A stretch of DNA of 64,000 bases. Source: Ectothiorhodospira shaposhnikovii (GTDB lineage: Bacteria; Pseudomonadota; Gammaproteobacteria; Ectothiorhodospirales; Ectothiorhodospiraceae). Of this stretch, positions 36,283 to 55,834 are shown piece by piece (position 1 is the stretch's first letter; every line of letters starts with the position of its first letter). Where the stretch lies: positions 1-64,000 of the forward strand of contig NZ_JAJMLZ010000002.1 of NCBI RefSeq assembly GCF_022227765.1. The letters are read 5' to 3'. The notes beneath the pieces were generated by a model, which did not search any database, was not told the origin of the DNA, and worked only from the letters and a program-made list of their open reading frames with translations. The position numbers and the translations under genes were made by a program.

Positions 36283-36305
36283 AGGCCCGGCGATGAACCG
36301 GGCCT
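36283..36305 (-). terminator. Terminator between convergent galE and nucleotidyltransferase gene
   Basis: An 8-bp stem aggcccgg / ccgggcct with a 7-nt loop. On the minus strand it is followed by GTTTCTTCTTAG, making it best suited to end the minus-strand operon; it starts at that gene's stop codon. It may also slow galE readthrough. Confidence 0.65.
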
Positions 36306-37393
36306 CAGGACTGCCGAACAAAGGCCTTCCTGCCCAGGTGCATCACCAACAAATGAGGGGGCATTTTCTGCCAGTGCCCCCGAATGATCAGCAACCACTC
36401 ACTCAAACGCCGATGGACACCCCGATCCAGGGTGTCCGAAGGGGACAGGGACATCCTCAACCCCCAGTCCAGCACCGCCCCTCCGAACCCCACTGGATAA
36501 CGGCGCCGCGCCAGATCCAGCACATCTCCCGGGACAGGGGTACCCACCAGACGATCCAGGTAATGCAGCGCCATGAAAAGGGGACGCTCAAGCCCGATCT
36601 CGGCCGCCCGCAGCAGCAGGCGCCGCCAGTCCTCGTCACCCGAAAAACCCCGGATCATCCCGTCCAGATCCAACAGATCCCGGAGCCCACCGGCCATCTC
36701 GCCCTCGGAAAAGAACAGATGCGTCGCGCTGTGCAGCACCCGGTCCTCCGGCGCCAGCACCCTGAAGAAACAGCCGTCGAGGGTCATCGCGGCATCCATC
36801 AGCAAGTCCGGACGGGTCTTCAGACGGGCCGTGGGCGGCAGGATCGAATGATGGACGTCAAGGGTCGTGCCGCGACGGATATGCTGCAGCGGCGGCAATT
36901 CATGCATCCATTCACGGTAATAGCGCTGATCGTAGTCGTCATGATGACTGTTCACCCAGCCCTTGAGCATCAGCGCCGCCTCCACCCGAGGCAACGCCTC
37001 CGGCGCCACCATGATGTCGATATCACCAAACAGGCGCCCTCCGGCAAACGCCAGATCGGCCACATGGTAGGCCGCGCCCTTGAGCAGAATGACCGGCACA
37101 TCCAGCCCGGACAGCGCCTCCTCGATACAGGAAAGCTCCCACCGCAGCTCCTCTGCCTGGGTATTCACCCGGGCAATGGCCCATTCCAGATGCTGACGAG
37201 GACCGATGGGCACGGACGCCAGTAATCCGCACGCCTCAAGCCCCACCGCCAACCGGCCAAGCAATCGACTCAGGCGGGCCTGCCTGATCAATACGTCCCA
37301 CTGGCCGGGAGAAAGGGTCCCCAGGGATACGGGATCCAGCACCCCGGACACGAGCAGTTCCCTTGCCGAACCACGCGCGTCAGGCAGCGGCAT
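36305..37393 (-). CDS. Nucleotidyltransferase family protein of the HPr-rel-A type operon
   Basis: 362 aa from MPLPDARGSARELLVSG. The centre holds VILLKGAAYHVAD followed by GGRLFGDIDIMVAPE, which fits the LKG...D-I-D active-site pattern of the large uncharacterised nucleotidyltransferase family (NTP_transf_5 type). A helical C-terminal half follows. The ATG overlaps the kinase stop by 14 nt. It presumably adds a nucleotide to a small molecule or protein; the substrate is unknown. Last gene of the four-gene operon, closed by a terminator. Confidence 0.85.
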   Translation of the reverse strand: MPLPDARGSARELLVSGVLDPVSLGTLSPGQWDVLIRQARLSRLLGRLAVGLEACGLLASVPIGPRQHLEWAIARVNTQAEELRWELSCIEEALSGLDVPVILLKGAAYHVADLAFAGGRLFGDIDIMVAPEALPRVEAALMLKGWVNSHHDDYDQRYYREWMHELPPLQHIRRGTTLDVHHSILPPTARLKTRPDLLMDAAMTLDGCFFRVLAPEDRVLHSATHLFFSEGEMAGGLRDLLDLDGMIRGFSGDEDWRRLLLRAAEIGLERPLFMALHYLDRLVGTPVPGDVLDLARRRYPVGFGGAVLDWGLRMSLSPSDTLDRGVHRRLSEWLLIIRGHWQKMPPHLLVMHLGRKAFVRQS

Positions 37394-38282
37394 GGATGTC
37401 CTCCACCAGCCGCATGCCCTCATCCAGGCTACCGTAGCCGATTTCGTGGCACCCGCAACGCTCCACAAGATCCGCCAACGCTTCAAAACCTTGCCGACGC
37501 AGGGCTGAAAAATTGAAGGCGCTCTCCATCAGCAGTGCAAATGCGGCAGCCTGCCCCACCCCACGATGCACGGGCCGGGCACCACGGGTGAACTTCGGAA
37601 AGATCACCGCCACCGGGGCGGCCGGACGCCGCACGGCCAGCACGCTCTCACGGGGCGGGCGCATGAGCGCCACCGAACCCTTCACGGTGTCCCGCACCGT
37701 CCCACTGAACGCATCCTCCCCCGCCAGCCCCTTGATCAGGTCGATGGAGTCATTCTTCAGACTGATCGGGCGCGCCAGCCCTTCGATGCTGAGTGCATCC
37801 AGGGCCAGTGGCGCCAGCTCATCCGACAGCAACCGCCAACCGTGATGCACCAAGCCTGCCACCAGAGTGCTCTTGCCGGAACCCGGCGGCGCGGGAATCA
37901 ACAGAGCCTTGCCGCCCTTTTCCACCACGGCGGCATGCAGAATCAGGCAATCCTTCACGGCGTCATGCACGCACCAGTTAAGCCCCCATTCCAGCAACGG
38001 AAAGGCCTGCGCATGGGGCAAGGGGAAGAAAGACGAACTGCCATCCACATGGAATTCAAGCTGCCTGCCGAACCATCGCCGCAGATTGCGAGGTGGTCTC
38101 ACCTCCACGTGGAAGTCGGCGAACCCTTCCAGGCTCACCGGGTGATGCCGATACATCCGCTGGACTTCATCGGCCAGGTGTTCAACGGGGGAACTCAGGC
38201 GAAAGGAAAAGCGCCCGAAATGGATAATGGCACCGGCACCGGCCACCAGCGCTCTGAAGTCACGGGCGGGGATGGCACCCAC
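37380..38282 (-). CDS. HprK-related kinase A
   Basis: About 300 aa. Walker A PAPPGSGKSTL lies at about residues 131-141 and is followed by LLSDELAPL, the Walker B-like segment of HPr kinase/phosphorylase relatives. The N-terminal half (FGRFSFRLSSPVEHLADEV) matches the lineage-specific part of the HPr-rel-A family. Start is uncertain: GTG at 38282 and TTG at 38291 fit the family length; ATG at 38381 would overlap the PqqD-like gene by 76 nt. It likely phosphorylates a protein partner, inferred from HprK. No canonical HPr gene is in the window. Confidence 0.85.
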   Translation of the reverse strand: MGAIPARDFRALVAGAGAIIHFGRFSFRLSSPVEHLADEVQRMYRHHPVSLEGFADFHVEVRPPRNLRRWFGRQLEFHVDGSSSFFPLPHAQAFPLLEWGLNWCVHDAVKDCLILHAAVVEKGGKALLIPAPPGSGKSTLVAGLVHHGWRLLSDELAPLALDALSIEGLARPISLKNDSIDLIKGLAGEDAFSGTVRDTVKGSVALMRPPRESVLAVRRPAAPVAVIFPKFTRGARPVHRGVGQAAAFALLMESAFNFSALRRQGFEALADLVERCGCHEIGYGSLDEGMRLVEDIHAAA

Positions 38283-38305
38283 CTCAACCAACGGGAGGGA
38301 GGCCT

Positions 38306-38620
38306 TTATGCCGTCCGCTCCACCAACTGCATCCCCTCCAGGGTGGACATGACCTGATACAACGCTTCCTGGGTTTTGCATCGGAGATCTTCGGATCCGG
38401 AAGTTTCGGTGTCGGGGGTGCAGGACCGCAGTAATGCCATGAAATCGCCGCGCCCAGCCGCCAGATGCTCCAGCACCTCACCGTGAAAACGGGACAGCAC
38501 AAAGACATCACCCGAACCCTGATGAAAGACGGCCACGCCATCATCCAGGGTTCGAACGATCACGCCCGCAGGGTGCAACCGCCAAGTGATCGCGTCTGCC
38601 CCGTCAATATCCAATGTCAA
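38306..38620 (-). CDS. PqqD-like peptide chaperone of the HPr-rel-A type system
   Basis: 104 aa. ITWRLHPAGVIVRTLDDGVAVFHQGSG followed by FVLSRFHGEVLEHLAAG fits the small winged-helix PqqD/RRE fold that binds leader peptides in ribosomal peptide modification. The TTG start overlaps the upstream TGA (TTGA). It sits between a putative exported protein and the kinase, so it may present a peptide substrate to the kinase; that is inference. Confidence 0.8.
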   Translation of the reverse strand: MTLDIDGADAITWRLHPAGVIVRTLDDGVAVFHQGSGDVFVLSRFHGEVLEHLAAGRGDFMALLRSCTPDTETSGSEDLRCKTQEALYQVMSTLEGMQLVERTA

Positions 38621-39345
38621 TCCGGAGAGCCGTCCGAGACATCGAAAAACTCGTCGGCATCATCAATCCAGACAGTCCTTTCGTAGGTTGATTCAAGATA
38701 TTGCTTCACGCGGACTTTATCCCAGAAAACCCCGGGCCTGACCTCATACCGACCAGTCGCTTCAAGCTCAGTCCACATCGATATCACTTGGACCGGAGTC
38801 AAGGGATAAGTGCCTGAAAATGTAACGGCATTCATGTATGCGGCCACAAACGCACGCGCAAGGTTGTCGGGATCACGAAACGACAGCTTCTTATGCTGAT
38901 GCCTGGATACAACATCCCGGAGAGTCAACGCCTCAACCCTTGAATTCACGTCAAGAACGCTCCCTACAACCTGAAAATGCCCTGCGGATCCGAATACCTC
39001 GACAAAGAGCCTATCCAACTCGGGTGAAGACGCCCCCCTAACCCCGGCAGCATTCCCCCAGTATCCGGGGGATTTTCCACACTGCAAGTTTTCCCGATCC
39101 CCCTTGCGACCACTGGCCTTCAGCGAATCAAACCCGGAGGGTGTATCGGCGACACAGGTCCAAGCTCCCAAGGCCGGCCTGTTGACCAAGGCGAAGAGGA
39201 CGGAGGTTGAGCCGGCAGCCAGAGCAAACCGTCTTCGACTGGACTGCACCCCCTGAGAGCATGAGATTCCCGAAGCCTCACCGTCAGAAGGAGGCAACAT
39301 GCGGGAACGCTCATCACCGGTATCGGGTATGTTTTTGTCAGCCAT
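38617..39345 (-). CDS. Unrecognised exported protein with Tat-like signal, first gene of the HPr-rel-A type operon
   Basis: 242 aa from MADKNIPDTGDERSR, with GAGG 10 nt upstream. A hydrophilic N-terminus of about 35 residues precedes SRRRFALAAGSTSVLFALV, resembling a twin-arginine signal with an Ala-x-Ala-like cleavage region at PALGA. A short Cys segment (AWTC, then QCGKSPGYWGN around 89-98) follows, and then a helical domain ending in an Asp-rich tail (DDADEFFDVSDGSPD). The CGKSPGYW piece resembles the C-x-x-(T/S)PGYW motif of some surface proteins. It could be the target of the operon. No function can be assigned. Confidence 0.75.
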   Translation of the reverse strand: MADKNIPDTGDERSRMLPPSDGEASGISCSQGVQSSRRRFALAAGSTSVLFALVNRPALGAWTCVADTPSGFDSLKASGRKGDRENLQCGKSPGYWGNAAGVRGASSPELDRLFVEVFGSAGHFQVVGSVLDVNSRVEALTLRDVVSRHQHKKLSFRDPDNLARAFVAAYMNAVTFSGTYPLTPVQVISMWTELEATGRYEVRPGVFWDKVRVKQYLESTYERTVWIDDADEFFDVSDGSPD

Positions 39346-40372: not shown

Positions 40373-41182
40373 CTAAGGCGTCAGATCCGCCTGCCGTAAC
40401 AGATCCCGGATGTAGTTCCCGGGGATGGCATAACTGATGCCGCTGGGCCGATCCAGCGCCCGCTCCCGCCCCTCCTTCACAAATACCATGTTCAACACCC
40501 CCACCACCTCGCCGGTCGCGGGCCGGTACAGGGGGCTGCCGCTGTTACCGGGGTAAGCCGTGGCATCCAGCTGAAACACTGCATAGGGATCACGCAGGCG
40601 CCGGATCACCCGGGGATCCAACTGCTGGGTGGAATGCATGGGCATGGCAACCGGCGTGATGGCGGAAACAATCCCCACATGAGTGGCCGGCACCAGCCCC
40701 AGCATGGCGCCGATGGGAAAACCGGTGAGCGCCACCGTCTCGCCTTCCCGCAGGCGGTCGGAGTTACCCAGGCGCAATGCGGGCAGAGGCGCCCCCTCGA
40801 TTCTCAACAACACCAGATCCCGCAACGGGTCAGAAGCCACCCGCTCCGCCCGACGCATTTCGCCGGAATCCCCCGAACCGGGAATGAAAACCGCCAGATG
40901 CTCCCGGTTGGCCGTATCGATGGTCAGGGGAATCACATGGTCATTGGTGATCACATGACGCCCGTCGGCCACCGCAAATCCCGTCCCCATCAGATTGGCC
41001 CGGGGCGAACGGGTCGGCTGGAAAGTCCCCACCCCCACCACGGAGGGCTTGACCCGGGCGATGGCATCGGCCAACTCCGATGCCGCCACCGACAGGGGCA
41101 TCACCAGCAAGAGAACCAGAATCCACCAGCCGAGAGGGCGAGAACGCGGGGATGAGCGATGATTCGTCGACAGGTTTTTCAC
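40373..41182 (-). CDS. Trypsin-like serine protease, exported
   Basis: 269 aa from GTG (GGAG 8 nt upstream). An N-terminal signal sequence (hydrophobic 18-34, ending SVAASELA) precedes a chymotrypsin-like domain. The triad is complete: His82 in ITNDH, Asp122 in RDLVLLRI and Ser214 in YPGNSGSPLY. There is no PDZ domain, unlike DegP. Probably periplasmic. It is divergent from the exosortase A-associated acyl ligase gene, and such proteases are common in these loci; the target is unknown. Confidence 0.88.
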   Translation of the reverse strand: MKNLSTNHRSSPRSRPLGWWILVLLLVMPLSVAASELADAIARVKPSVVGVGTFQPTRSPRANLMGTGFAVADGRHVITNDHVIPLTIDTANREHLAVFIPGSGDSGEMRRAERVASDPLRDLVLLRIEGAPLPALRLGNSDRLREGETVALTGFPIGAMLGLVPATHVGIVSAITPVAMPMHSTQQLDPRVIRRLRDPYAVFQLDATAYPGNSGSPLYRPATGEVVGVLNMVFVKEGRERALDRPSGISYAIPGNYIRDLLRQADLTP

Positions 41183-41259
41183 AGCGTCCGCTCCATGATT
41201 GCGCTTGGCTTTGATTATAGACCTCCTGCAGAATGCCTGAAAAACAGCGCGAGGCCCCC

Positions 41260-42867
41260 ATGGACAGCACCTACCTCCTGCACCATCTTCCCTTCGCCGC
41301 CGGCGAACGCAACCCGGAAGCCCCCGCCCTCACCCACGGCGACACCACCCGGACCTACGGGCACACCACCCAGGCCATCCGGGATTTTGCCGCCGCGCTG
41401 GCCTCCATCGGCCTCACTCGCGGAGAACGGGTGGCCGTCTACCTGGAAAAACGCCTGGAAACCGTCACCGGCATCTTCGGCACCAGCGCGGCGGGGGGCG
41501 TCTTCGTGCCGGTGAACCCGATTCTCAAGCCCGACCAGGTGGCCTACATCCTGCGCAACTGCAACGTGCGCATCCTGATCACCTCGCCCGCCCGCCTCGG
41601 CGGCCTGCGGGAAGCCCTGGCGGACTGCCACGATCTGCGCCACATCATCCTGACCGAAGCCCCCGGCGACATGCCCGACCTGCCCGGCGTCGCCCTCCAT
41701 GGCTGGCCCGAACCGGGCGGCCACGCCGACTACCGGGAGCCGCGCATCATCGACACCGACATGGCCGCCATCCTCTACACCTCCGGCAGCACCGGCGGCC
41801 CGAAGGGGGTGGTCCTGTCCCATCGCAACATGGTCATGGGCGCCAAAAGCGTGGCCCAATACCTGGAAAACCACGCCGACGACACCCTGCTGGCCGCTCT
41901 GCCCCTGTCCTTCGACGCGGGATTTTCCCAACTCACCACCGCCTTCCATGCCGGCGCCCGAGTGGTCCTGCTCAACTATCTACTGCCCCGGGACGTACTC
42001 AAGGCCCTGGTCCGGGAACGGGTGACCGGCCTGACCGCCGTACCGCCCCTGTGGATTCAGCTCACCCAGCAGGACTGGCCCGAGGGCATCGACGAACACC
42101 TGCGCTACATCGCCAACACCGGCGGGCGCATGCCCCTGGCCACCCTGCGTCGACTGCGGGATACCCTGCCCCGCACACGCCCCTATTTAATGTATGGCCT
42201 CACCGAAGCCTTCCGCGCCACCTACCTGCCGCCGGAAGAGGTGGATCGACGCCCCGATTCCATCGGCAAGGCCATCCCCAATGCCGAAGTCCTGGTCCTG
42301 CGGGAAGACGGCAGCCCTTGCGCCCCCAACGAACCGGGAGAACTGGTCCAGCGGGGCGCCCTGGTGGCCCAGGGCTACTGGAACGACCCAGACAAGACCG
42401 CCCGCCACTTCAGGCCCCTGCCCGCCCTGGCCCCGGGCCGCGAGTCTGGTCTGGTTCTGCCCGAGATCGCCGTCTTCTCCGGCGACACGGTGCGATACGA
42501 CGAAGACGGCTACCTCTACTTCATCGGCCGTCGGGACGAGATGATCAAGACCTCGGGCTACCGGGTCAGTCCCACGGAAGTGGAAGAAATCCTCTACGCC
42601 ACCCGGCTGGTAGGCGAATGCGTGGCCTTCGGCATCCCCGACGACACCCTGGGCCAGATCATCGCCGTCATCGCCACGCCGCCGACGGCGGACACGACCC
42701 TGGATGTGGACGCCCTGCTGGCCCAATGCAAGGCCCGCATGCCCGCCTACATGGTCCCGGCCCGCATCCACGCCCATGACGGCCCCCTCCCCCGCAACCC
42801 CAACGGCAAGCTGGACCGCAAGGCGCTGGCCGGCGCATGGTCTGCGAAGGCATCGGACAACAAATGA
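41260..42867 (+). CDS. Acyl-CoA ligase (AMP-forming), exosortase A system-associated
   Basis: 535 aa ANL-superfamily adenylating enzyme. ATP motif YTSGSTGGPKGVVLSH is near residue 175; YGLTEAFRATYLPPEEV and the hinge motif YFIGRRDEMIKTSGYRVSP follow; the catalytic Lys is in NPNGKLDRKAL near the end. ATG at 41260 has GAGG 6 nt upstream. It would activate a carboxylic acid as acyl-AMP, perhaps loading the ACP encoded at 49.1 kb. It overlaps the next gene by 4 nt. Assigned from sequence memory to the exosortase A-associated ligase family. Confidence 0.9.
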   Translation: MDSTYLLHHLPFAAGERNPEAPALTHGDTTRTYGHTTQAIRDFAAALASIGLTRGERVAVYLEKRLETVTGIFGTSAAGGVFVPVNPILKPDQVAYILRNCNVRILITSPARLGGLREALADCHDLRHIILTEAPGDMPDLPGVALHGWPEPGGHADYREPRIIDTDMAAILYTSGSTGGPKGVVLSHRNMVMGAKSVAQYLENHADDTLLAALPLSFDAGFSQLTTAFHAGARVVLLNYLLPRDVLKALVRERVTGLTAVPPLWIQLTQQDWPEGIDEHLRYIANTGGRMPLATLRRLRDTLPRTRPYLMYGLTEAFRATYLPPEEVDRRPDSIGKAIPNAEVLVLREDGSPCAPNEPGELVQRGALVAQGYWNDPDKTARHFRPLPALAPGRESGLVLPEIAVFSGDTVRYDEDGYLYFIGRRDEMIKTSGYRVSPTEVEEILYATRLVGECVAFGIPDDTLGQIIAVIATPPTADTTLDVDALLAQCKARMPAYMVPARIHAHDGPLPRNPNGKLDRKALAGAWSAKASDNK

Positions 42868-44099
42868 ACAAACCCGCCCCCACCCACACCCCCATGACCC
42901 AGTTCCCCGTCCGTGACGGCGAACTCACCATCGGCGGCATGCCGCTCACCCGGCTGGCCGCCCGTGTGGGGCAGACGCCCTTCTACGCCCATGACCGCGG
43001 CCTGCTCACCCGGCGCGTGGCGCAACTGCGGGAACAACTCCCCCGGGGTATCCAGCTTCACTACGCCATGAAGGCCAACCCCATGCCCGCCCTGGTCTGC
43101 CACATGGCCGGCCTGGTGGACGGCATCGACGTGGCCTCGGCCGGAGAACTCAAGGTGGCCCTGGACGCCGGCGCCGATCCCGCCGACATCAGCTTTGCCG
43201 GCCCCGGCAAACAGCCGCTGGAACTGCAACAGGCCGTGGCCGCCGGCATCCTGGTCAACATCGAATCCTTCCGGGAAATCCCCCTCCTGGCCCAGGCATC
43301 GGAACAGCTGGGCCTGCCCGCCCGGGTAGCGGTTCGGGTCAACCCGGACTTCGAACTCAAGAGTTCCGGCATGAAGATGGGCGGCGGCCCCAAACAGTTC
43401 GGCGTGGATGCCGAGCAGGTGCCGGACCTGCTCCAGGCCATCGGCAACGCCGGGCTGCACTTTGAAGGCTTTCACCTGTTTGCCGGCTCCCAGAACCTGC
43501 AAGCCGGCGCCATCGTCGAGGCCCAGCAAAAAAGCTTTGAACTGGCCTGCCGACTGGCCGAACACGCCCCGGCACCGATCCGGTTCCTCAACCTGGGGGG
43601 CGGCTTCGGCATCCCCTACTTCCCCGGAGAACGCCCCCTGGATCCGGCCCCCATCGGCGACAACCTGGCCACGCTCCAGGCAGAAGCGGCCCGCCGCCTG
43701 CCGGAGGCGGCACTGGTGATCGAACTGGGGCGCTACTTCGTGGGCGAGGCGGGGGTCTACGTCTGCCGCATCCTGGATCGCAAGCTCTCCCGCGGCCACC
43801 CCTACCTGGTCACCGACGGCGGCCTGCACCAGCACCTGGCGGCCTCGGGCAACTTCGGCCAGATCATCCGCAAGAACTACCCGGTGGCCATCGGCAACCG
43901 CATGGACGAAACGGAGATGGAAACCGCCTCGGTAGTCGGCCCCCTGTGTACCCCTCTGGACCTACTGGCCGACCGCATGACCCTGCCCAAGGCCCAACCC
44001 GGTGATCTGGTGGTCATCTTTCAGTCAGGGGCCTACGGCCTGACGGCCAGCCCGGAAAAATTCCTCGGGCATCCGACCATTCCGGAAATCCTGGTCTGA
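42864..44099 (+). CDS. PLP-dependent decarboxylase, exosortase A system-associated
   Basis: 411 aa fold-type III (alanine racemase-like barrel) decarboxylase related to diaminopimelate and ornithine decarboxylases. The Schiff-base Lys70 is in HYAMKANP. GGGFGIPYF binds the phosphate. ELGRYFVGEAG and the C-terminal GAYGLTASPEKFLGH complete the active site of the dimer. Its ATGA overlap with the ligase indicates coupled expression. An amino acid or aminoacyl substrate is likely; its identity is unknown. Confidence 0.92.
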   Translation: MNKPAPTHTPMTQFPVRDGELTIGGMPLTRLAARVGQTPFYAHDRGLLTRRVAQLREQLPRGIQLHYAMKANPMPALVCHMAGLVDGIDVASAGELKVALDAGADPADISFAGPGKQPLELQQAVAAGILVNIESFREIPLLAQASEQLGLPARVAVRVNPDFELKSSGMKMGGGPKQFGVDAEQVPDLLQAIGNAGLHFEGFHLFAGSQNLQAGAIVEAQQKSFELACRLAEHAPAPIRFLNLGGGFGIPYFPGERPLDPAPIGDNLATLQAEAARRLPEAALVIELGRYFVGEAGVYVCRILDRKLSRGHPYLVTDGGLHQHLAASGNFGQIIRKNYPVAIGNRMDETEMETASVVGPLCTPLDLLADRMTLPKAQPGDLVVIFQSGAYGLTASPEKFLGHPTIPEILV

Positions 44100-44192: not shown

Positions 44193-44688
44193 GCCTCCCA
44201 TCGACATCGAGCCCCGTCACTGGGCAATCGTGTCCGACATCCTTTGCCGGCACCTGCCGGACACGGAAGTCAGGGCCTTCGGTTCCAGGGTCACCGGCAG
44301 GACCAAACCCTATTCGGACCTGGATCTACTCATCATGCCCAGAACGCCCATAAGCCTGCGACACCTGGGCTTGCTCCAGGAGGCCTTCAGCGAATCCGAG
44401 TTGCCCTGGAAGGTTGACCTTGTGGACGGCTCCACCATCAGCGACACATTCAGACTCGCCATCGTCCCCCAGTCCATCCGGATTCACCCCCCCGAACAAA
44501 CCCCGGATCCGGTGGCTCAATCCCTGGAAAATCCGTCACCGGCCTCACTGAACGAGGGCGCTCCGGGGCAGGATAATCCCGAATCCCCCGCAAGCCCCAC
44601 CAGACCGCCCCACAGGCCTGCCAGCCCACCCAAGCCGCCGCCGCCGCAATCCAGACACTTGTGGGATCCGGCCTCAGCCCCGCCATGA
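44176..44688 (+). CDS. Minimal nucleotidyltransferase (MntA/antitoxin-like), with aberrant C-terminal tail
   Basis: 170 aa as read. The first 107 residues carry AFGSRVTGRTKPYSDLDLLI, the GSx10DxD active site of MNT-type nucleotidyltransferases, and end like the family at about RIHPPE. The remaining 63 residues are Pro/Ser-rich and run antisense to the VanZ-like gene, so the natural stop was probably lost by a deletion. Its HEPN partner is only a remnant. In intact pairs the enzyme AMPylates or neutralises the HEPN RNase. Probably a decaying toxin-antitoxin pair. Confidence 0.65.
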   Translation: MPAINKPPIDIEPRHWAIVSDILCRHLPDTEVRAFGSRVTGRTKPYSDLDLLIMPRTPISLRHLGLLQEAFSESELPWKVDLVDGSTISDTFRLAIVPQSIRIHPPEQTPDPVAQSLENPSPASLNEGAPGQDNPESPASPTRPPHRPASPPKPPPPQSRHLWDPASAPP

Positions 44689-45931
44689 ACAGCTTGCCCG
44701 ACTCCATCACGACGGCCAGCGTCATCGCCAACGCAACAGCGACCCATGGACCACCCAAGGGTGTGACGCCCCACGGCCCCCAACGCCACAGCCACATCAT
44801 GATGCCCACGGGGGCATACATCATCAGATGCAGCAGTACACTGCCGATTGCCACCGCCTCGGGCACCACATAGTGATACCAGAACGGCAAGAATCGCATC
44901 GATTCCAGCTTGGCCGATACCTCCCCCGCCTCCAGAACAAACCCCTTTCCGCCCAGATTGAGCAACACCATGAGCGCCAGGTAAGGGATCAACGAAAGCA
45001 TCACCACCGGCCGCGCCCGATGGCGCAGCCGGCCCGGACTGAAATGACCGCGCCACACAAACAGCCCGATCCCCAGAAGCACCCCCAGCGCCCTGGAAAG
45101 TGCAGACCCACCCTCGGCAATGCCGGAAATCGTCAGAAACTGCCCGATTTCCACCCACACGCCAAACATCATTGCGGCAACCACGGACAGGAAGAATCTC
45201 CCCCAGCCCGAGACAGCCGCAAAATGCTCCCTCATCCACCACCCCACCAAGATACCGACAGGCAGGGTCATCACCACAATCATGCTCCGCAGCACCCACC
45301 AGCGCAGGCCAGCATCCTCAGAGACGGGCGCCCGCCAAAGCCCCCAGCCATTGGATTCCAGCTTACCCACCCACTCCTGCCAGGAAACGATGAAATCCAG
45401 CGGCAACCAGGCAAACAGCACATAGGCCACCCCATAGATCACCAACCCTCTTCGCAACGCGGTCAACCCACCCTGGCGCAGCGTCGCCAACCACCGGCGT
45501 CCCGGCCCCGACAATCCATACCATGCCAGCACGCCCACCACGCCACCAATGAAGTTGCCGCTCATATCCAGCAGGGACGGCTCTCGCCGGGGCAACCAGA
45601 ACTGCAGGAACTCCACCATCGCCGTGGTCGCCAGGGCCAGCAGGACCACGAACAGCCCCACCAGGCAACGCCCCAGGAAACCGCGCACATAACCGGACAA
45701 CCAGGCCGTCCAGAACAGCCCCAGAGGCACAAACATCAGGATGTTGGCCACCCACTGCTGCCGCGCCGAGGCACGCATTTGCGGGACATCCAGACTGGTG
45801 AAATGTGCCCAGGCCTGGGCAACACTCTGGTTACCGAAATCAAACGGCATCAAGGTGGCATAGAGCACCGCCAGGAGTGACAACCAGGCAGCCACCGCAA
45901 AATTAACTCCCTTTCGAGGCACATCAGCCAA
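44450..45931 (-). CDS. Large VanZ-like membrane protein
   Basis: 493 aa with many hydrophobic helices. VanZ-type signatures occur three times: MPFDF with VEFLQF...LDMSGNFIGG (28-135), LPLDF with VEIGQF...ALGVLLG (176-287), and a third with MESGKLF...(410-436). The last 40 residues (from about RDYPAPERPRS) are Pro-rich, lie opposite the tail of the nucleotidyltransferase and may not be native. VanZ-family genes are frequent in exosortase/polysaccharide loci; the biochemical role is unknown. Confidence 0.8.
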   Translation of the reverse strand: MADVPRKGVNFAVAAWLSLLAVLYATLMPFDFGNQSVAQAWAHFTSLDVPQMRASARQQWVANILMFVPLGLFWTAWLSGYVRGFLGRCLVGLFVVLLALATTAMVEFLQFWLPRREPSLLDMSGNFIGGVVGVLAWYGLSGPGRRWLATLRQGGLTALRRGLVIYGVAYVLFAWLPLDFIVSWQEWVGKLESNGWGLWRAPVSEDAGLRWWVLRSMIVVMTLPVGILVGWWMREHFAAVSGWGRFFLSVVAAMMFGVWVEIGQFLTISGIAEGGSALSRALGVLLGIGLFVWRGHFSPGRLRHRARPVVMLSLIPYLALMVLLNLGGKGFVLEAGEVSAKLESMRFLPFWYHYVVPEAVAIGSVLLHLMMYAPVGIMMWLWRWGPWGVTPLGGPWVAVALAMTLAVVMESGKLFMAGLRPDPTSVWIAAAAAWVGWQACGAVWWGLRGIRDYPAPERPRSVRPVTDFPGIEPPDPGFVRGGESGWTGGRWRV

Positions 45932-46227
45932 TGGAGATCTCCATCCAAAATATCATGATCGGGCGGTCGTCCGAATATATGGCAGAACATCCCATATCCG
46001 TTTACGCTGAACCTGTTGTTCCGAATCGACAGGCCACCCAACCAGTGGCACTTTTCTCATCTGGAGCATAATTACAAATTCAGCCCAAGACAGCGACCTG
46101 CCTACAGCGCACCCAGCTAAGGACCACCGCCCGTCGCCGAAAAATCCCTGTCGGGTTAAGCTACCATCCTTGCGCCATGGGACATCTCGAACTGCCTGAC
46201 CCGGGCGCCCAAAGCCAAGGAGACCTC

Positions 46228-47358
46228 ATGTCGTCCATCCGCCCCATCCTCTGCGTCGTCGGCGCCCGCCCCAATTTCATGAAGATCGCCCCCATCATGC
46301 GGGCCTTCGCCGCGGCAGAGATACCGGCCCTGCTCCTGCATACCGGTCAGCACTACGATGCCGACATGAATGACGCCTTCTTCCGCGATCTGGGCATCCC
46401 CCACCCGGACATCAACCTGGAAGTCGGCTCGGGCACCCACGCCCAGCAGACCGCGGAGATCATGCGTCGGGTGGAACCGGTCCTGGATCAGCATCAGCCC
46501 GCCGCCATCCTGGTGGTGGGTGATGTCAACTCCACCATCGCCTGCGCCCTGGTAGCCGCCAAGAAAGGTGTCCCCGTCATCCACGTGGAGGCCGGGCTGC
46601 GCAGCCGGGATCGCACCATGCCCGAAGAAATCAACCGAGTTCTGACCGACCAGATCTCCGACCTGCTATTCACCACCGAGCGCAGCGCCCTGGACAACCT
46701 AAAACAAGAAAGCATTGACCCGGAGCGGGTGCACTTCGTCGGCAACGTGATGATCGACACCCTGCACTACAACCTGCGCCAGGCCATACCGGCGTCAGAC
46801 ACCCTAAAGGCCCAGGGCCTGGATGCCGGACTCATCGACTCACCCGCGGGCTATGCCCTACTCACCCTGCACCGCCCCTCCAATGTGGATGACCGGACCG
46901 TGCTGACCGGCATCACGGACTGCATCAACCGCATCGCCCGTGATCTGCCCATCATCTTCCCCATTCACCCGCGCACCCGTGGCCGTCTGATGGAATTCGG
47001 CCTGCTGGACACCCTGGCCCCGCGTCGCGTCCTGTGCACTCCGCCCCTGGGATATCTGCAACTGCTGGGCCTGATGCGGGAGGCCCGCCTGGTCCTCACC
47101 GACTCCGGCGGCATACAGGAAGAAACCACCGCCCTGGGCATTCCCTGCATCACCCTGCGCCACAACACCGAGCGGCCCATCACCGTCACGGAGGGCACCA
47201 ACACCCTGGTGGGCAACCAACCGGAAGCCATCATGGGAGCCGTCACCCAGGCGCTGGCACAACCGGCAAAGTCCGGACGCATCCCCGAATACTGGGACGG
47301 CAAGGCCGCGGAACGTATCGCCGCCGTACTCAAGGGGTGGTCGCCGGATCGGACGTAG
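46228..47358 (+). CDS. wecB: UDP-N-acetylglucosamine 2-epimerase (non-hydrolysing)
   Basis: 376 aa from MSSIRPILCVVGARPNFMKIAP, with AAGGAG 6 nt upstream. GT-B fold with VVGDVNSTIA, HVEAGLRSRDRTMPEEINR and TDSGGIQEETTALG, all characteristic of the enzyme that makes UDP-ManNAc from UDP-GlcNAc. Supplies a sugar for the surface polysaccharide. Its 3' end overlaps the convergent hydrolase gene by 29 nt. Confidence 0.93.
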   Translation: MSSIRPILCVVGARPNFMKIAPIMRAFAAAEIPALLLHTGQHYDADMNDAFFRDLGIPHPDINLEVGSGTHAQQTAEIMRRVEPVLDQHQPAAILVVGDVNSTIACALVAAKKGVPVIHVEAGLRSRDRTMPEEINRVLTDQISDLLFTTERSALDNLKQESIDPERVHFVGNVMIDTLHYNLRQAIPASDTLKAQGLDAGLIDSPAGYALLTLHRPSNVDDRTVLTGITDCINRIARDLPIIFPIHPRTRGRLMEFGLLDTLAPRRVLCTPPLGYLQLLGLMREARLVLTDSGGIQEETTALGIPCITLRHNTERPITVTEGTNTLVGNQPEAIMGAVTQALAQPAKSGRIPEYWDGKAAERIAAVLKGWSPDRT

Positions 47359-48229
47359 GCACACGCGCTGCCGGGGGCGGCGGCGGATCCTGCAGGGCAT
47401 GCAGCCAGCGCAGGGTGCTTGCCGCCACCTGATCCCGCCACTGCGCGCGGGAAAACGTGTGATCGGCCCCCTCGATGTTCATCACCTGCCCCTGCCGCAG
47501 CAATGAAGACCAAACCGGGTCCTGTTCAACGGTCCGCTCAAACCGGCGGGCCACCAGATCACGGCCACTGAGCAACCACAGTACCGGCCGCTTCGACCGC
47601 AACACGGCGTCCCGCAGTTGCCCGGACAGGGAAGCACCGGTTTCTACCCCATCACCGCGTCTGAACACACGCAGACACAGGCCCAGCAACTCACCACCGG
47701 ATCGGTGCCAGGACACTCGCCCACGCCACACCTTGCGCCAGAATCCCCGATCAAGAAAACGCCCCAGGTAATAGTGCTTCAACACCACACCGGCATCCTC
47801 CCCCACCTCACCCAGCCAGGGATTCAGCAACACCAGCCCGGCTACCCGGGCATCCTTGGGGGCATAGACACCCGCTGCCCAGGCACCATCACACAACCCC
47901 CAGAGCACCACCCGCCGTACCCGCGGCACCGCCTTCAGCAAGGCATCCACCGCGGCCCGGATATCGTCGTCCACCGACTCAAACCCGGGCGACTCGCCCG
48001 TAGCATCCCCACAGCCACGAAAATCAAAGCGCAGACAGGCAAACCCGGCACCGGCCAGATACCGGGACAACAATAGAAACTGGCGATGACTCCCCACCCG
48101 ATACTGGGGGCCACCCACCACCACGATCACCCCCACATCGCCGACCGGCCCATCCGGCACCGCCGCCACCCCCAGCAACTCATCATCACCGCAGGGAAAA
48201 CACAGCGCCCGCTCGGTAAACGTACTCAC
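47330..48229 (-). CDS. Exosortase A system-associated hydrolase 1 (alpha/beta fold, Cys nucleophile)
   Basis: 299 aa alpha/beta-hydrolase. FRGCGDATGES matches the oxyanion region. The nucleophile elbow is LWGLCDGAWA, with Cys instead of Ser as in dienelactone hydrolase-like enzymes. The acid is probably Asp in SGRDLVARR and the base His in GADHTFS. Its ATG shares 4 nt with the stop of hydrolase 2 (ATGA). A Pro-rich tail ends it. The ACP-hydrolase 2-hydrolase 1 gene order points to thioester chemistry on an ACP-bound group; the substrate is unknown. Confidence 0.9.
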   Translation of the reverse strand: MSTFTERALCFPCGDDELLGVAAVPDGPVGDVGVIVVVGGPQYRVGSHRQFLLLSRYLAGAGFACLRFDFRGCGDATGESPGFESVDDDIRAAVDALLKAVPRVRRVVLWGLCDGAWAAGVYAPKDARVAGLVLLNPWLGEVGEDAGVVLKHYYLGRFLDRGFWRKVWRGRVSWHRSGGELLGLCLRVFRRGDGVETGASLSGQLRDAVLRSKRPVLWLLSGRDLVARRFERTVEQDPVWSSLLRQGQVMNIEGADHTFSRAQWRDQVAASTLRWLHALQDPPPPPAARVPTSDPATTP

Positions 48230-49044
48230 CGGACTGCCTCCAGCGACTTCAGAAAATCCAGAGACCCATCACACAAGGCGGGTGCCACCATGATCTCCCG
48301 TGACTGCCAGAACCGTGGGCCATCCACTGCCGACACCCATACCGGCACCTCCAGCGCCCGCCATGCCTGCGCCAGACGCTGGACACCTCGCCCCGGCACG
48401 CCGCCGGCGGCCACCTCCAACAACCCCACCGGAGCCTGAAACCCCTCCGGTAGCACCAACTCGGCAGCCGACAGCCCCGCCGCCAGCGCCGGCCCAAGAG
48501 AATATCCCGCCACTTCCACCCCCTCACCAGTTTCCAGCGCCAGCCTGAGCGACTCAACCACTCCCGAGGCCTCTCCGCCCTCCAGCATCCCGGCCATGGC
48601 CCTGAGCCGCAAGAACTCGTTCAACTGCCGCTGCCCCTGCGTCACCGGTTGCCAGAAAAGCAAAGGCACCGATCTCTCGGTGCCCTTCAACCAGTCCGCC
48701 ACCAGCAATGCGCCCGCCCGCAAGGACCACAACACCCGGGGACCGGCACAGTCCGCGTCCATCCACGCCCAGGCCCTGTCCAGATCCTCAAGCCAGGAAT
48801 CCCAGTGTGCCTCCCCGAAGTCTCCGGCACTGTCGCCGCAGCCATGGAGATCCATCTGCAGGACCACCCAACCTGCTCGGGCAAAGGACCGTGCCGCCAG
48901 ACCGATCATGCGGCGGGATGTATTCAGTTCCTCGGCAAAGGCCGGGACATGAATGATCCCGCCAACAGGACACCCCTCGGGTCGGGTCACCAGACAAAAG
49001 CGCCGTCCGGTACCGTGCCCCAGAAAAAAGGCCTCCCGCTGCAT
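48226..49044 (-). CDS. Exosortase A system-associated hydrolase 2 (probable non-catalytic alpha/beta fold)
   Basis: 272 aa from MQREAFFLGHGTGRRF (GAGGG about 9-10 nt upstream). IIHVPAFAEELNTSRRM and MDLHGCGDSAGDFGEAHW show the alpha/beta-hydrolase frame and family. The elbow reads LWSLRAGALL, placing Arg where the nucleophile should be; the C-terminal region lacks a clear catalytic His. Likely a partner or scaffold of hydrolase 1. It overlaps the ACP stop region upstream by none and hydrolase 1 by 4 nt. Confidence 0.88.
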   Translation of the reverse strand: MQREAFFLGHGTGRRFCLVTRPEGCPVGGIIHVPAFAEELNTSRRMIGLAARSFARAGWVVLQMDLHGCGDSAGDFGEAHWDSWLEDLDRAWAWMDADCAGPRVLWSLRAGALLVADWLKGTERSVPLLFWQPVTQGQRQLNEFLRLRAMAGMLEGGEASGVVESLRLALETGEGVEVAGYSLGPALAAGLSAAELVLPEGFQAPVGLLEVAAGGVPGRGVQRLAQAWRALEVPVWVSAVDGPRFWQSREIMVAPALCDGSLDFLKSLEAVR

Positions 49045-49060
49045 GGCCAACACCCTCACA

Positions 49061-49318
49061 TCAAGCGGAATCCGCGAGTTTTGCCTCGACAAAGTTCACC
49101 AAAGAACCAACCGTCTCAAAGGTCTCTCCCTCGATTTCATCATCGGTAATGAAAAAATCGAAGCGCGTCTCCAGTCCATTGATCAGATTCACCACCGCCA
49201 TGGAATCAAACTCCGGCAATGCCCCCAACAACCGGCTATCCGCGTCGAAGGTCATCGCCCGTCCACCAAGACTGAGCACTTCATCAATCACCGCCAGGAC
49301 TTCTTTCTGGGTATCCAA
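49061..49318 (-). CDS. Acyl carrier protein of the exosortase A-associated cluster
   Basis: 85 aa. Four-helix ACP with the phosphopantetheine Ser in EFDSMAVVNLING. A TTG start at 49318 is preferred because GGAG lies 8 nt upstream and the following LDTQKEVLAVIDEV is the first helix; an earlier TTG at 49357 lacks a site. It heads the ACP-hydrolase 2-hydrolase 1 operon. Probable carrier for the acid activated by the ligase at 41.3 kb. Confidence 0.87.
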   Translation of the reverse strand: MDTQKEVLAVIDEVLSLGGRAMTFDADSRLLGALPEFDSMAVVNLINGLETRFDFFITDDEIEGETFETVGSLVNFVEAKLADSA

Positions 49319-49410
49319 GGACAACGCTCCATGGTCTAGAGTCAGGATCAACAACAAAAAGGAATGCTAACATAGCCAAGGCCCTGCTCAGCCCCCCGGA
49401 AACCCAACCC

Positions 49411-50697
49411 GTGGCCAGACCGCACCCATCCCGGCGCATCCTCATGATTGCCTATCACTTCCCGCCCCTGACGGGCAGTAGCGGCATCCAGAGAACCCTG
49501 CAGTTCGTGCGTCACCTGCCCGAGTTCGGCTGGGAACCCATCGTGCTCACCGTCCATCCTCGCGCCTACCCGAACACCAACCCCGACCTGCTCCGTGACA
49601 TCCCCGCACACGTCCCGGTCATCCGAGCCCAAGCCTTCGACAGCGCTCGACATTTCGCCCTGGCGGGACGCTATCCTGCCTGCCTGGCCCGTCCGGATCG
49701 CTGGATCAGTTGGCTTCCCGCCGCCCTCCATCGCGGCCGACAACTCATTCGGACCTATCGCCCCCGGATCATCTGGAGCACCTACCCCATCGCCACCGCC
49801 CATGCCATCGGCTACCGGCTGCACCGGGCCAGCGGCCTGCCCTGGATCGCCGACTTCCGGGACCCCATGGCCCACGAGGGCTACCCCGAAGATCCAGCCA
49901 CCTGGGCCGCCTTCAAGCGCATCGAAGAACAGGTATTCAGTGCCGCCGCCGGCGTCAGCTTCACCACGCCGGGCGCCCTGGACTTCTACCGGGATCGCTA
50001 CCCCCGTTACCCGGGTGAATCATTCAAACTGATCGAAAACGGCTACGCCGAAGAAAACTTCGCCGGACTCGATGAACAGGCTGCCGCCAAGGGCCCCCTG
50101 CACCCCGGCCGAATCACCCTCCTGCACAGCGGCATCGTCTACCGCAACGAGCGCGACCCCACCCACCTGTTCCAGGCGTTGCAGACCCTCCGCCAACAGG
50201 ACCTCCTCCACCCGGACCGATTCATCCTGCGTCTGCGGGCTCACCATAACGGCGACCACCTGCGAACACTGATCGACCGTTACCAACTGCAACCCCTGGT
50301 GGAACTGGCGCCCCCACTGCCCTACCGGGAGGCCCTGGAAGAAATGCTGCGGGCCGACGGTCTGCTCATCCTGCAGGCGGCCAACTGCAACCAGCAGATA
50401 CCGGCCAAACTCTATGAATACCTCCGGGCCAGGCGCCCGCTGCTGGGGCTGACGGACCCGGCAGGCGACACCGCCCGGACCCTGAAAGACATGGGCTACC
50501 GGCACCTGGCCCCCCTGGACCAGCCCGAGCAGATTGCTCCGACACTGCTGACCCTGCTGAAGGATATGGATGCCGGACTCCCGCCCGGCCCGGATTCGGA
50601 GGTCATTCGTCGGTATTCCCGGCGTCAACTCACCCGAACTCTGGCATCATGGCTGGACAACCTATCCGAGCCACCCGAAACGCTCCCGCCCCCATGA
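49411..50697 (+). CDS. GT4-like glycosyltransferase
   Basis: 428 aa GT-B protein. ILMIAYHFPPLTGSSGIQRT near the N-terminus is the donor-fold loop typical of WcaI/GT4-type enzymes. IADFRDPMAHEG is in the linker; ITLLHSGIVYRNERDPTHL opens the second domain, and IPAKLYEYLRARRPLLGL the nucleotide-sugar-binding end. GTG start at 49411 (weak ribosome site); ATG at 49444 is an alternative. Likely forms a repeat-unit linkage; the sugar is unknown. Confidence 0.87.
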   Translation: MARPHPSRRILMIAYHFPPLTGSSGIQRTLQFVRHLPEFGWEPIVLTVHPRAYPNTNPDLLRDIPAHVPVIRAQAFDSARHFALAGRYPACLARPDRWISWLPAALHRGRQLIRTYRPRIIWSTYPIATAHAIGYRLHRASGLPWIADFRDPMAHEGYPEDPATWAAFKRIEEQVFSAAAGVSFTTPGALDFYRDRYPRYPGESFKLIENGYAEENFAGLDEQAAAKGPLHPGRITLLHSGIVYRNERDPTHLFQALQTLRQQDLLHPDRFILRLRAHHNGDHLRTLIDRYQLQPLVELAPPLPYREALEEMLRADGLLILQAANCNQQIPAKLYEYLRARRPLLGLTDPAGDTARTLKDMGYRHLAPLDQPEQIAPTLLTLLKDMDAGLPPGPDSEVIRRYSRRQLTRTLASWLDNLSEPPETLPPP

Positions 50698-50710
50698 CTC
50701 CGACATAGCC

Positions 50711-52144
50711 ATGCGCGACATACTGCTACTCATCATCATCGGCGGGTCCTTGCCCTTCATCCTGTTCATGCCCTGGATCGGGGTACTCATGTGGTACTGG
50801 ATCGGGCTCATGAACCCCCACCGACTCGGCTGGACCTTCATCACCGACATGCCGGTAGCCATGATGGTGGGGGTGGTCACCCTCGCGGCCCTGGTCCTCA
50901 CAAGGGACCGCAAACCCCTGCCCTTCACCCGCGAGATCGTCGTCCTGGTGATCTTCACCGGCTACATCACCATGACCACCTACTTCGCCTGGAGCCACAT
51001 GGCCTGGGTCCAGTGGGACACGGTGATGAAAGTCCTGCTCATGACCTTCGTCACCCCCATGCTGATCTACGGCCGGACCCGCACCCTGCTGCTGATCCTG
51101 GTGGTGGCCGGCTCCATTGGCTTCTACGGCTTCAAGGGAGGATTGTTTTCCATCCTCACTGGAGGGGCTCACATGGTATTGGGGCCACAGAGAAGCTTCA
51201 TCGCGGGCAACACGGACCTGGGTCTAGCGATGATCATGGTCCTGCCCATGCTGCTGATCATCGCCCGCATGTTCCGGGAAAACTGGGTGGATCTGGGCAT
51301 CCTGTCCCGCTCCCCCAAGATCGCCGGCTATGCCGCCTACAGCGTATTCTGGCTGACGGCGGCCGCCATCATCTTCACCTACTCCCGGGGTGCCCTGCTG
51401 GGCCTCCTGGCCATCGCCCCGTTCATGTTCCTCAAGATGAGAAGAAAGGGCAGCCTGATCCTGGCAGCGGTCCTGGCCGTCACCGTCATCGGCGTGACCC
51501 TGCCCGAGCGGCTCGTCAGCCGCTGGCAGACCATCCAGACCTATGAAGAAGACCATTCCGCCATGCAGCGGGTCCAGGCCTGGGGCGTCAACTGGAACAT
51601 GGCGGTGGAGCGGCCTCTGCTGGGCGCCGGCTTCAACAACGTCTATATCCCCAACAGCGTCTGGATGAGCTACGCCAATTTTGAAGGACCATGGCACCCC
51701 AACACCGCCCGCGTGGCCCATAGCCTGTATTTCCAGGTTATCGGGCACCACGGATTCGGGGGATTCGCGGTCTTCATGACCATGATCCTATTCACCCTGC
51801 TCACCCTGAACCGGATACGCAGGCAATCCCGGCATATCCCCGGCAAGGAGTGGATGGGCCAGTTTGCCTGGGCCATGCAGGTAGGATTGTTCGGATACCT
51901 GGTAGCCGGCGCCTTCCTGGACCGTGCCTACTTCGACCTGATGTTCGCCATGGTGGCCATCACTATCATCCTGCGCCGGGAACTGGACACCGTGGAGGCG
52001 CCGGCCCCGCAACAGGTTGGCACCGAAAACCCGGGCCACGAATCCTCATCGCCCGCGCCCAGGGATTTCGTCAGGACGCCGGAAAACGTCCAGGCCAGCC
52101 ACGCCGCAACAACCGACCGCCCCATGTCGCGACACGCTCCCTGA
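50711..52144 (+). CDS. O-antigen ligase-like membrane protein, exosortase A-associated
   Basis: 477 aa with about ten membrane helices. MPWIGVLMWYWIGLMNPHRLGW at the N-terminus and the big periplasmic loop with RVQAWGVNWNMAVERPLLGAGF and AHSLYFQVIGHHG are the Wzy_C/O-ligase features and match the exosortase A-associated O-glycosylation ligase family. It would transfer a polysaccharide from lipid carrier to an acceptor. Start 50711 overlaps no gene; the last 74 nt overlap the convergent GNAT gene. Confidence 0.9.
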   Translation: MRDILLLIIIGGSLPFILFMPWIGVLMWYWIGLMNPHRLGWTFITDMPVAMMVGVVTLAALVLTRDRKPLPFTREIVVLVIFTGYITMTTYFAWSHMAWVQWDTVMKVLLMTFVTPMLIYGRTRTLLLILVVAGSIGFYGFKGGLFSILTGGAHMVLGPQRSFIAGNTDLGLAMIMVLPMLLIIARMFRENWVDLGILSRSPKIAGYAAYSVFWLTAAAIIFTYSRGALLGLLAIAPFMFLKMRRKGSLILAAVLAVTVIGVTLPERLVSRWQTIQTYEEDHSAMQRVQAWGVNWNMAVERPLLGAGFNNVYIPNSVWMSYANFEGPWHPNTARVAHSLYFQVIGHHGFGGFAVFMTMILFTLLTLNRIRRQSRHIPGKEWMGQFAWAMQVGLFGYLVAGAFLDRAYFDLMFAMVAITIILRRELDTVEAPAPQQVGTENPGHESSSPAPRDFVRTPENVQASHAATTDRPMSRHAP

Positions 52145-53174
52145 GCATCAGCAAGGCACCCCGCCAGGTACGCACATTCAGGGCCAGGATGCCCCACTGC
52201 TCCCGGCGGTGGGGCATCCAGTCCGCTTTGTAAGGGTCATCCCCGGTCATAAAATCCACTTCACTCACCCGTTCATCATCCAGCATGCGCTCCATCATGA
52301 GCGCCGTCAGCAGAGTACCGGGGGAAAAGGCCTCAAAGCGCGGATCATGGGCCAGCTTGTAGATATGGGCACGCCCCTGATGACGCAGCCAGAGCTGAAC
52401 AGCCACCGGGGCCTCGTCCACCGTCAACACCCCCAGGCGCAGCATTCCCGTCCGCGCGGCCATGTGGATCAAGCCCGGCATGAAATCGGGGAAAGGTTCA
52501 GGCCGTTTCCAGCTCACGGCATACACGGACTCGTAGGCGGCAACCGCCACCGGCACGTCATCCACCTGCCGGTACAGATGAAACGCCACCCCATGCAGAC
52601 GCCGAAGTCGCCGCCCCTTGCGCTGCAGGGTGCTGCGCAGGTGCCCGGGCCGGCCGGCCAGATAGGTAACCCAGTCCATGCCCATGGTGGGAAGATACCG
52701 ATTGCCGAAACGAAAATAGGGCTTCACGAAGAAACCCTCGTCCCGTAACGCCTGCTCCACCCGCCCCATCATCGGCCCCTGGAGGCACAGGGGTCCCAGG
52801 TCCAGCCCCTCACACAGCCCGGGCGTCGAACGCAGATGACGGACAATCGCCCGCAAGCCCTGTTCGCCGCGTGATCCCGCCGCCATCACCGGCCCATACA
52901 TGGGGGCATAGTAATTCTGTAACGCCCGCCAGCGCCGCGGCCGCGCCCGGGACACCAGACACGGCAACACGCAGACAGGCTGCCCTCCGGCATCGAAGGC
53001 CACCGGGAAGCGGGGCGCGTCATCGGGATTGAGTCCATGGGCGATCAGGCACTCAAACCATGCCCAGGTACAGAAGGGATGACGGCACTCAGCCTGCTCG
53101 AACAATGCCCGGCACGCCACGGGCAGGGCCGCCAGACTCTCGAAGACCCGCACCCGGCTCATTGGGGCATCCAT
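52071..53174 (-). CDS. GNAT-family acetyltransferase (BioF2/CelD-like)
   Basis: 367 aa. Two GNAT-like halves; FCTWAWFECLIAHGL early and AHIYKLAHDPRFEAFSPGTLL then SEVDFMTGDDPYKADWM late are typical of Acetyltransf_6 proteins in cellulose and other polysaccharide clusters. The ATG shares a base with the preceding glycosyltransferase stop (TGATG). Likely acylates a sugar or peptide; the substrate is unknown. Confidence 0.85.
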   Translation of the reverse strand: MDAPMSRVRVFESLAALPVACRALFEQAECRHPFCTWAWFECLIAHGLNPDDAPRFPVAFDAGGQPVCVLPCLVSRARPRRWRALQNYYAPMYGPVMAAGSRGEQGLRAIVRHLRSTPGLCEGLDLGPLCLQGPMMGRVEQALRDEGFFVKPYFRFGNRYLPTMGMDWVTYLAGRPGHLRSTLQRKGRRLRRLHGVAFHLYRQVDDVPVAVAAYESVYAVSWKRPEPFPDFMPGLIHMAARTGMLRLGVLTVDEAPVAVQLWLRHQGRAHIYKLAHDPRFEAFSPGTLLTALMMERMLDDERVSEVDFMTGDDPYKADWMPHRREQWGILALNVRTWRGALLMLRERVATWGGRLLRRGWPGRFPAS

Positions 53175-55830: not shown

Positions 55831-55834
55831 GGGC

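Follow-up and report, generated by a model that had tools for sequence, protein, structure and literature searches.

Phosphorylation of a precursor serine by an HprK-type kinase is established in several related bacterial systems (PMC13381572, PMC9266682, PMC8498205), which are described here from the portions of those reports available to us. Linear polyphosphorylated peptides (LPPs) of Bacillota arise from lppAKBSDN clusters, which encode a recognition element for ribosomally synthesized and post-translationally modified peptides (RiPPs), known as a RiPP recognition element (RRE), together with an HprK-like kinase, an NTP transferase, a signal-peptidase-like leader peptidase, and a transporter (PMC13381572, 2026). 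The LPP kinase adds several phosphates to Ser3 of the core, just past the leader cleavage site, and the clusters are frequently located near capsular polysaccharide loci (PMC13381572). In the phosphorylated lasso peptide pseudomycoidin, the addition of one or two hexoses to the phosphate requires the nucleotidyltransferase (PMC9266682, PMC8498205). Here we describe a four-gene operon on the minus strand of a 64,000-nucleotide stretch of the Ectothiorhodospira shaposhnikovii genome (contig NZ_JAJMLZ010000002.1, positions 1 to 64,000; hereafter the window), in which a gene of no recognised family, gene 1, is followed by genes for a PqqD-like protein, an HprK-related kinase, and a nucleotidyltransferase (Table 1). 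The operon is probably a leader-guided protein modification system acting on the product of gene 1.

The four genes overlap or are tightly spaced, as a reading made from the DNA letters alone (the sequence-only reading) had described, and the identities which that reading gave to the last three proved right. The kinase scores 331 bits against TIGR04352 (cut-off 200), which NCBIfam names HprK-related kinase A of the HPr-rel-A system, and is 98% identical to the kinase of E. shaposhnikovii DSM 243; its two likely starts lie 15-24 nt past the stop of the PqqD-like gene, and an in-frame ATG is also present at 38381. The nucleotidyltransferase scores 191.8 bits against PF14907 (NTP_transf_5; cut-off 31.2). 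The sole family match of the PqqD-like protein is TIGR04353, where its 33.2 bits fall just below the cut-off of 35, though fold and position agree with the assignment. Gene 1, unlike its partners, had been called unrecognised, and this is borne out: the window protein has no match in Pfam or NCBIfam, nor in the Protein Data Bank (PDB) by profile or by predicted fold, and a scan of 66 family members at E <= 0.01 found nothing in NCBIfam and, for a single member, one marginal match in Pfam.

Gene 1 is a constant fourth member of the HPr-rel-A system. The best 80 of 268 kinase relatives in the genome contig collection were fetched with their flanks; the gene 1 profile was seeded with 45 upstream open reading frames (ORFs) containing PGYW, which leaves at least 35 of the 80 loci outside the seed, and the PqqD profile was iterated from 7 first matches using ORFs near the kinase. 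Every one of the 80 loci contains exactly one gene 1 homologue (weakest profile E = 4.3e-10), always immediately upstream of the PqqD-like gene, and in 80/80 the four families lie on a single strand with their order unchanged. Because these related loci share strand and order throughout, the arrangement is not a product of chance. The class draw, comprising 276 genomes of the class and separate from the first 80 loci, includes 28 genomes whose kinase passes the TIGR04352 cut-off. In 27 of these (window included), gene 1 or its leader lies directly upstream of the PqqD-like gene, two of the 27 (L162 and L169) having weak gene 1 profile scores (E 0.002-0.01), while the 28th locus, L165, is interrupted by a contig end. 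A phylum draw of 299 more distant genomes gave 44 over the same cut-off; two of them were already covered, and 40 of the remaining 42 loci were retrieved. Of these 40 loci, 36 have an ORF with a twin-arginine leader ahead of the kinase (21 by profile at E <= 0.001 and 15 by weaker scores or reading alone), including five with a leader and no PqqD match (L238, L239, L241-L243). No kinase in either draw is >= 90% identical to any of the first 80, and 25 of 27 in the class draw and 39 of 40 in the phylum draw are < 60% identical to them, so the two draws are not repeats of the first loci. Co-occurrence of gene 1 homologues with the kinase and PqqD-like genes had been set beforehand as the test of the proposal, and it was found in all three sets, in the phylum draw as a leader ORF.

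In the reverse search, gene 1 as query found 32 matches across 29 of the 276 genomes, 25 of the matches being inside the operon. Three others (two in G086, one in G166) are short leader peptides adjoining a sub-cut-off HprK-like kinase. One more (L142, G260:C20) is an unlinked second copy that has a full leader and a CTLSGMMSGN motif; the operon is present in the same genome, and this copy is a possible in-trans substrate. The remaining three cover the C-terminal domain alone (G013, G069, and the second match of G219, the last by query range only); at L133 (G013:C37) this related domain ends a longer exported protein without the leader, and at L134 (G069) it likewise stands at the end of a longer protein without the leader; within the gene 1 family, the domain was matched by no Pfam model. 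Natural fusions tie the parts of the operon together. The kinase and nucleotidyltransferase form a single 708-aa ORF in L227 (5462-7585), and L174, L200, and L202 each have one ORF in which an RRE (E 2e-3, 2e-3, and 8e-4, respectively) is joined to an HprK-like kinase below the cut-off, with L173 as a weaker case; the RRE is N-terminal in L173, L174, and L200 and C-terminal in L202. A different rearrangement is seen in L076 (4614-10023), where the kinase and nucleotidyltransferase genes are duplicated in tandem with a single gene 1 homologue between the copies.

The gene 1 product has the anatomy of a precursor, with a conserved leader, two invariant serines behind it, and a diverse remainder. 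An alignment of 66 rows (the window and 65 of the 80 loci) has only four invariant columns: R37 and R38, which are the twin arginine of the leader, and S70 and S74. C64 is conserved in 64/66 rows, and residue 60, the presumed -1 position, is A or G in all 66; the leader is taken to end at this predicted -1 residue, the cleavage site being judged by eye. The window leader reads SRRRFALAAGSTSVLFALVNRPALG and has the Tat (twin-arginine translocation) signal features of a twin arginine, a hydrophobic stretch, and A/G at the presumed -1 position. TatC is found in 28/28 kinase genomes and also in 11/14 controls. A script finds the pattern S[GAW]xxS in 78 of 81 gene 1 proteins, and the other three read PSGHDS, SGMASGN, and PSGSLSG. 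Among 1775 divergent gene 1 pairs (< 35% identity), the leader (residues 36-60) has a mean identity of 43% against 23.5% for the mature part and is the better conserved of the two in 1666; the stretch 61-80 averages 41.5% and the remainder 21%. In the structural model, the N-terminal third, S70 and S74 included, is of low confidence, with a predicted local distance difference test score (pLDDT) < 50 at residues 65-84, and is followed by a confident, mostly helical domain at about residues 90-220 (mean pLDDT > 80 in all but one of the 13 ten-residue blocks covering 91-220), for which no PDB fold match was returned at E <= 0.001. This pattern of model confidence places the serine segment, of which residues 65-84 are probably flexible, between the export signal and the folded domain. 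The suggestion that gene 1 could be the substrate is thus supported by co-occurrence and by precursor anatomy, while the modification itself is what we infer.

Its predicted fold identifies the PqqD-like protein as an RRE, in agreement with the original description as PqqD/RRE-like. Its model (pLDDT 85.2) was compared with 350,542 PDB chains and gave six matches at E <= 0.001, all to TbiB1 or TfuB1 (E 2.2e-5 to 9.5e-4, probability 1.00), which are lasso-peptide B1 RREs whose structures were solved with leader peptides. The identity is settled by fold, the sequence profile being too weak: searched against the PDB, it gave weak matches only, with designed proteins at the top and TfuB1 (E 0.055) and TbiB1 (0.14) lower.

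In the kinase, H125, the P-loop K146, D163, and E164 are invariant in 44 aligned members (numbered from 38309), and Glu164 sits where HprK (1jb1) has Asp. The label "HprK-like" holds as a statement of kinship and not of identity with a true HPr kinase, the score against the HPr kinase/phosphorylase family TIGR00679 being 18.6 bits where the cut-off is 240. For the same reason it is very improbable that the kinase is regulatory in the manner of HPr kinase, phosphorylating a soluble carrier in an operon that couples secretion to metabolism; the P-loop region does align weakly with HprK of 1jb1/2qmh (E 0.013), but the enzyme is constantly paired with the RRE and gene 1.

Beside the gene order, linked presence, RRE fold, gene fusions, and invariant twin arginine and serines computed here, RRE binding, phosphorylation, and other modification of the gene 1 product are proposed by analogy. 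The Tat-like export signal of gene 1 would double as the leader for the PqqD-like RRE, which would present the protein to the HprK-related kinase. The kinase would then phosphorylate, perhaps repeatedly, S70 and/or S74, which lie in the flexible stretch 10-14 residues past the predicted cleavage site. The same chemistry is argued for these serines because the enzyme trio of LPPs and lasso peptides here adjoins a leader-bearing protein. In the least certain step, the NTP_transf_5 enzyme might place a nucleotidyl or sugar group on the phosphate. The modified protein would leave by the general Tat pathway and be cut by ordinary signal peptidase, so that a dedicated transporter or peptidase would be unneeded; since the leader is an export signal, the simplest route for the protein, once modified and folded, would be through Tat. 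The data thereby point to a substrate and two candidate residues for the orphan HPr-rel-A system.

A second class of candidate substrates was found in the class and phylum draws. Most of its leaders follow xxPx[VILM]x[TS]L (21 of the 25 distinct ones that were typed), and a script places a serine ahead of the first cysteine in 33 of 35, with at least two rows mis-anchored. A subset marked by C[EQ]IPVP... (L244-L251) is found in eight genomes that belong to f187, a family outside the class. Lower-scoring HprK-like kinases have short peptides as neighbours, SRRSFIKKAAYIAPVVLTLKASPSMA... being one example, and the hydrophobic part of these peptides holds YxxPx[VIL], the RRE motif of lasso peptides and LPPs. 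With a motif-blind filter, [YWF]xxPx[VILMAFY] occurs in 8/15 near-kinase candidates (7 with Y/W) against 3/27 at other places in these loci; some of the 15 are out-of-frame noise, and the filter lost L177, L185, L189, and L200, which were read by eye. A stricter filter leaves the motif in 6/8 short peptides ([YWF]; 5 with Y/W), one of the six, L197, being unlike a signal peptide, and the background among ordinary Tat signals is 0/30 with Y/W and 1/30 with F. These short Tat-like-leader proteins beside sub-cut-off kinases are likely another set of RRE-guided phosphorylated precursors. Tat-like leaders with [YWF]xxPx[VILM] were observed beside such kinases in L174, L176, L177, L179 (two), L180, L181, L185, L189, L196, L200, and L202, and in several of these short proteins GS motifs stand directly behind the leader. 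As the RRE-binding site of the window leader, YxxP was considered and rejected; because that leader does not hold the motif, it stays a lead.

Several observations weigh against leader-guided phosphorylation of gene 1. The lasso and LPP RRE motif [Y/W]xxPx[LVIAF] is absent from the window leader; its Tyr position is never aromatic in the 66 aligned members, and position 48 is P in 24/66. The window leader was also not among the genome's 4 matches in a search with the Tat model TIGR01409 at E <= 0.001. Lasso kinases are described with a His-Lys-Asp-Asp motif in the parts of the report consulted (PMC9266682), and the window kinase has Asp-Glu where their final Asp-Asp would fall, by a presumed residue correspondence. 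The invariance of S70 and S74 is limited to class-1 substrates, the class-2 relatives having a serine before the first cysteine instead. Neither a leader nor a PqqD match was found at L224, L225, L229, and L240, four of the 40 loci of the phylum draw. In the LPP system, deletion of the nucleotidyltransferase gene in a heterologous host changed nothing detectable, according to the portion of that report available to us (PMC13381572).

The surroundings of the operon bear on two further explanations. An exosortase-A acyl ligase and a pyridoxal-phosphate (PLP) decarboxylase lie at 41233-44099 of the window, and relatives of the two were found within the flanks of 7/80 and 3/80 loci, respectively. 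The ligase family TIGR03098 is over cut-off in 13/28 kinase genomes against 34/276 overall (Fisher p = 1.6e-6), and asparagine-synthase and glycosyltransferase neighbours recur in 16/67 and 12/67 loci. These associations would suit a role for the kinase, RRE, and nucleotidyltransferase in modifying some other substrate, whether a small peptide in trans or an exopolysaccharide (EPS) or lipid of the neighbouring exosortase-A cluster, with gene 1 as a co-regulated exported partner. We regard this as unlikely: no exosortase-A ligase reaches the cut-off in 15 of the 28 kinase genomes, whereas gene 1 or its leader is present in 27, and conservation within gene 1 is highest in the leader, the kind of segment to which an RRE would be expected to bind. 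The link between the ligase and the kinase genomes is real and not obligatory, and exosortase as an obligate partner was rejected on the same 15 genomes and on the low counts of relatives in the flanks of the 80 loci. Phosphoserine might also be an intermediate, its phosphate being joined to a surface glycan or lipid by the nucleotidyltransferase or by an unlinked enzyme, as an anchoring device for exported proteins. Such anchoring would fit the folded domain on the substrate, the exosortase/EPS neighbourhood, and the requirement for a nucleotidyltransferase in phosphoserine hexosylation of pseudomycoidin, yet it is quite improbable, as substrates of both classes are also present where no exosortase-A ligase of the genome reaches the cut-off (e.g. 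G151 and G078) and anchor chemistry was not encountered for any relative in the parts of the literature consulted.

Other neighbours recur as well. Relatives of the trypsin-like protease upstream of the operon lie near it in 15/80 loci, in other genera, and a protein cluster named by its resemblance to this protease is found in 20/67 loci; the protease could process the exported product. Beyond the ligase and decarboxylase, the region 44450-64000 carries a gene for a VanZ-like protein and then polysaccharide genes, among them apparent ones for glycosyltransferases and ABC-2 transport. Together with the ligase and decarboxylase, these form an EPS/exosortase region adjoining the operon, in which genes beyond 45931 were named by reading.

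Table 1. Coordinates of the operon genes, the parts of gene 1, and a recurrent neighbour, counted from the first letter of the window.
Feature	Position	Strand	Remarks
Gene 1, candidate substrate/precursor, 242 aa, ATG start	39345-38617	minus	contains CGKSPGYWGN; Tat-like leader, flexible linker, and folded C-terminal domain
Leader of gene 1, residues 36-60 (SRRRF...NRPALG)	39166..39240	minus	predicted export signal and RRE recognition segment
Post-cleavage motif of gene 1, residues 64-78 (C64 ... PSGFDSLKAS)	39112..39156	minus	holds candidate modification sites
S70, candidate modification site of gene 1	codon 39138-39136	minus	
S74, candidate modification site of gene 1	codon 39126-39124	minus	
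C-terminal folded domain of gene 1, residues 89-220, including CGKSPGYWGN	38686..39081	minus	predicted fold
PqqD-like discrete RRE, 104 aa, TTG start	38620-38306	minus	4-nt overlap with gene 1
HprK-related kinase A	37380..38291	minus	TIGR04352; likely start TTG 38291 or GTG 38282
NTP_transf_5 nucleotidyltransferase, ATG start	37393-36305	minus	PF14907; 14-nt overlap with kinase
Trypsin-like (Trypsin_2) protease	40373..41182	minus	PF13365, 90.3 bits; recurrent neighbour, possible accessory, outside the core

Leader-guided modification of gene 1 may also be one instance of something wider, and we offer the following as a tentative possibility. The operon would then represent an unnamed, widespread Proteobacterial class of secreted phospho- (perhaps phosphoglyco-) proteins, in which a Tat-like signal peptide is the RRE-binding leader and one machine of RRE, kinase, and nucleotidyltransferase labels the N-termini of otherwise unrelated exported proteins before export, possibly joining them to surface polysaccharide made next door. 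The exported proteins would include those with the GYW domain, the CEIPVPDPGRAG proteins of the f187 genomes outside the class, and the short GS-rich peptides adjoining related kinases.

Among described systems, the HPr-rel-A system of NCBIfam (TIGR04352, TIGR04353) is the same system, with the window kinase as a member; NCBIfam has no family for gene 1, and its names state no substrate. No papers using "HprK-related kinase", TIGR04352, TIGR04353, HprK_rel_A, HPr-rel-A, or PqqD_rel_X were found in a search that left most subscription journals outside its scope, and literature on PqqD with HPr kinase, on RiPPs with a twin-arginine signal, and on HprK-like kinases was limited, by title and abstract, to lasso peptide, LPP, or unrelated papers. 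The comparisons that follow again draw on the available parts of the reports cited above. Like the LPP clusters, the operon sets a discrete RRE, an HprK-like kinase, and an NTP transferase beside a precursor gene, and the precursors of both have a conserved N-terminus and a variable C-terminus (LPP precursors being 35-200 aa). The two differ in that LPPs belong to Bacillota and this system to Proteobacteria, that the substrate here is a protein of 242 aa with a folded domain, and that its leader resembles a Tat export signal and lacks the YxxPxVLxHQ motif; the full LPP leader motif, YxxPxVLxHQxIxFETxxS, is not in the window leader. The dedicated peptidase and exporter of the LPP type are also missing from the operon. 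It contains no signal-peptidase-I-like gene, the genome's sole Peptidase_S26 match being on another contig (C22), and no MsbA-like transporter, the full MsbA match being on contig C1 and the window's only MsbA-related match an ATPase domain at 61337-61924, > 20 kb away.

Phosphorylated lasso peptides of the paeninodin/pseudomycoidin type share with this operon a B1-type RRE fold, an HprK-like kinase, and a nucleotidyltransferase. Their target is a C-terminal serine, whereas internal serines are proposed here and gene 1, which ends in ...DGSPD, has no C-terminal serine; the kinase motif here ends in Asp-Glu, and a search confined to the four genes of the operon found no macrolactam cyclase or B2 peptidase. 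With bufferins and other MNIO-modified RiPPs the system would share the replacement of a RiPP leader by an export signal and the consideration of protein-length substrates; in the part of that report consulted, the signal is of the Sec type where ours is Tat-like, and an MNIO oxidase with a DUF2063-type partner takes the place of kinase, RRE, and nucleotidyltransferase (PMC12452194). By analogy, the enzymes may work like those of LPPs and phosphorylated lasso peptides, yet this operon lacks defining features of both. If the proposed chemistry is true, RRE-guided phosphorylation would reach beyond the short peptides of Bacillota, to folded proteins that Proteobacteria export, with an export signal acting as the enzyme leader for a kinase.

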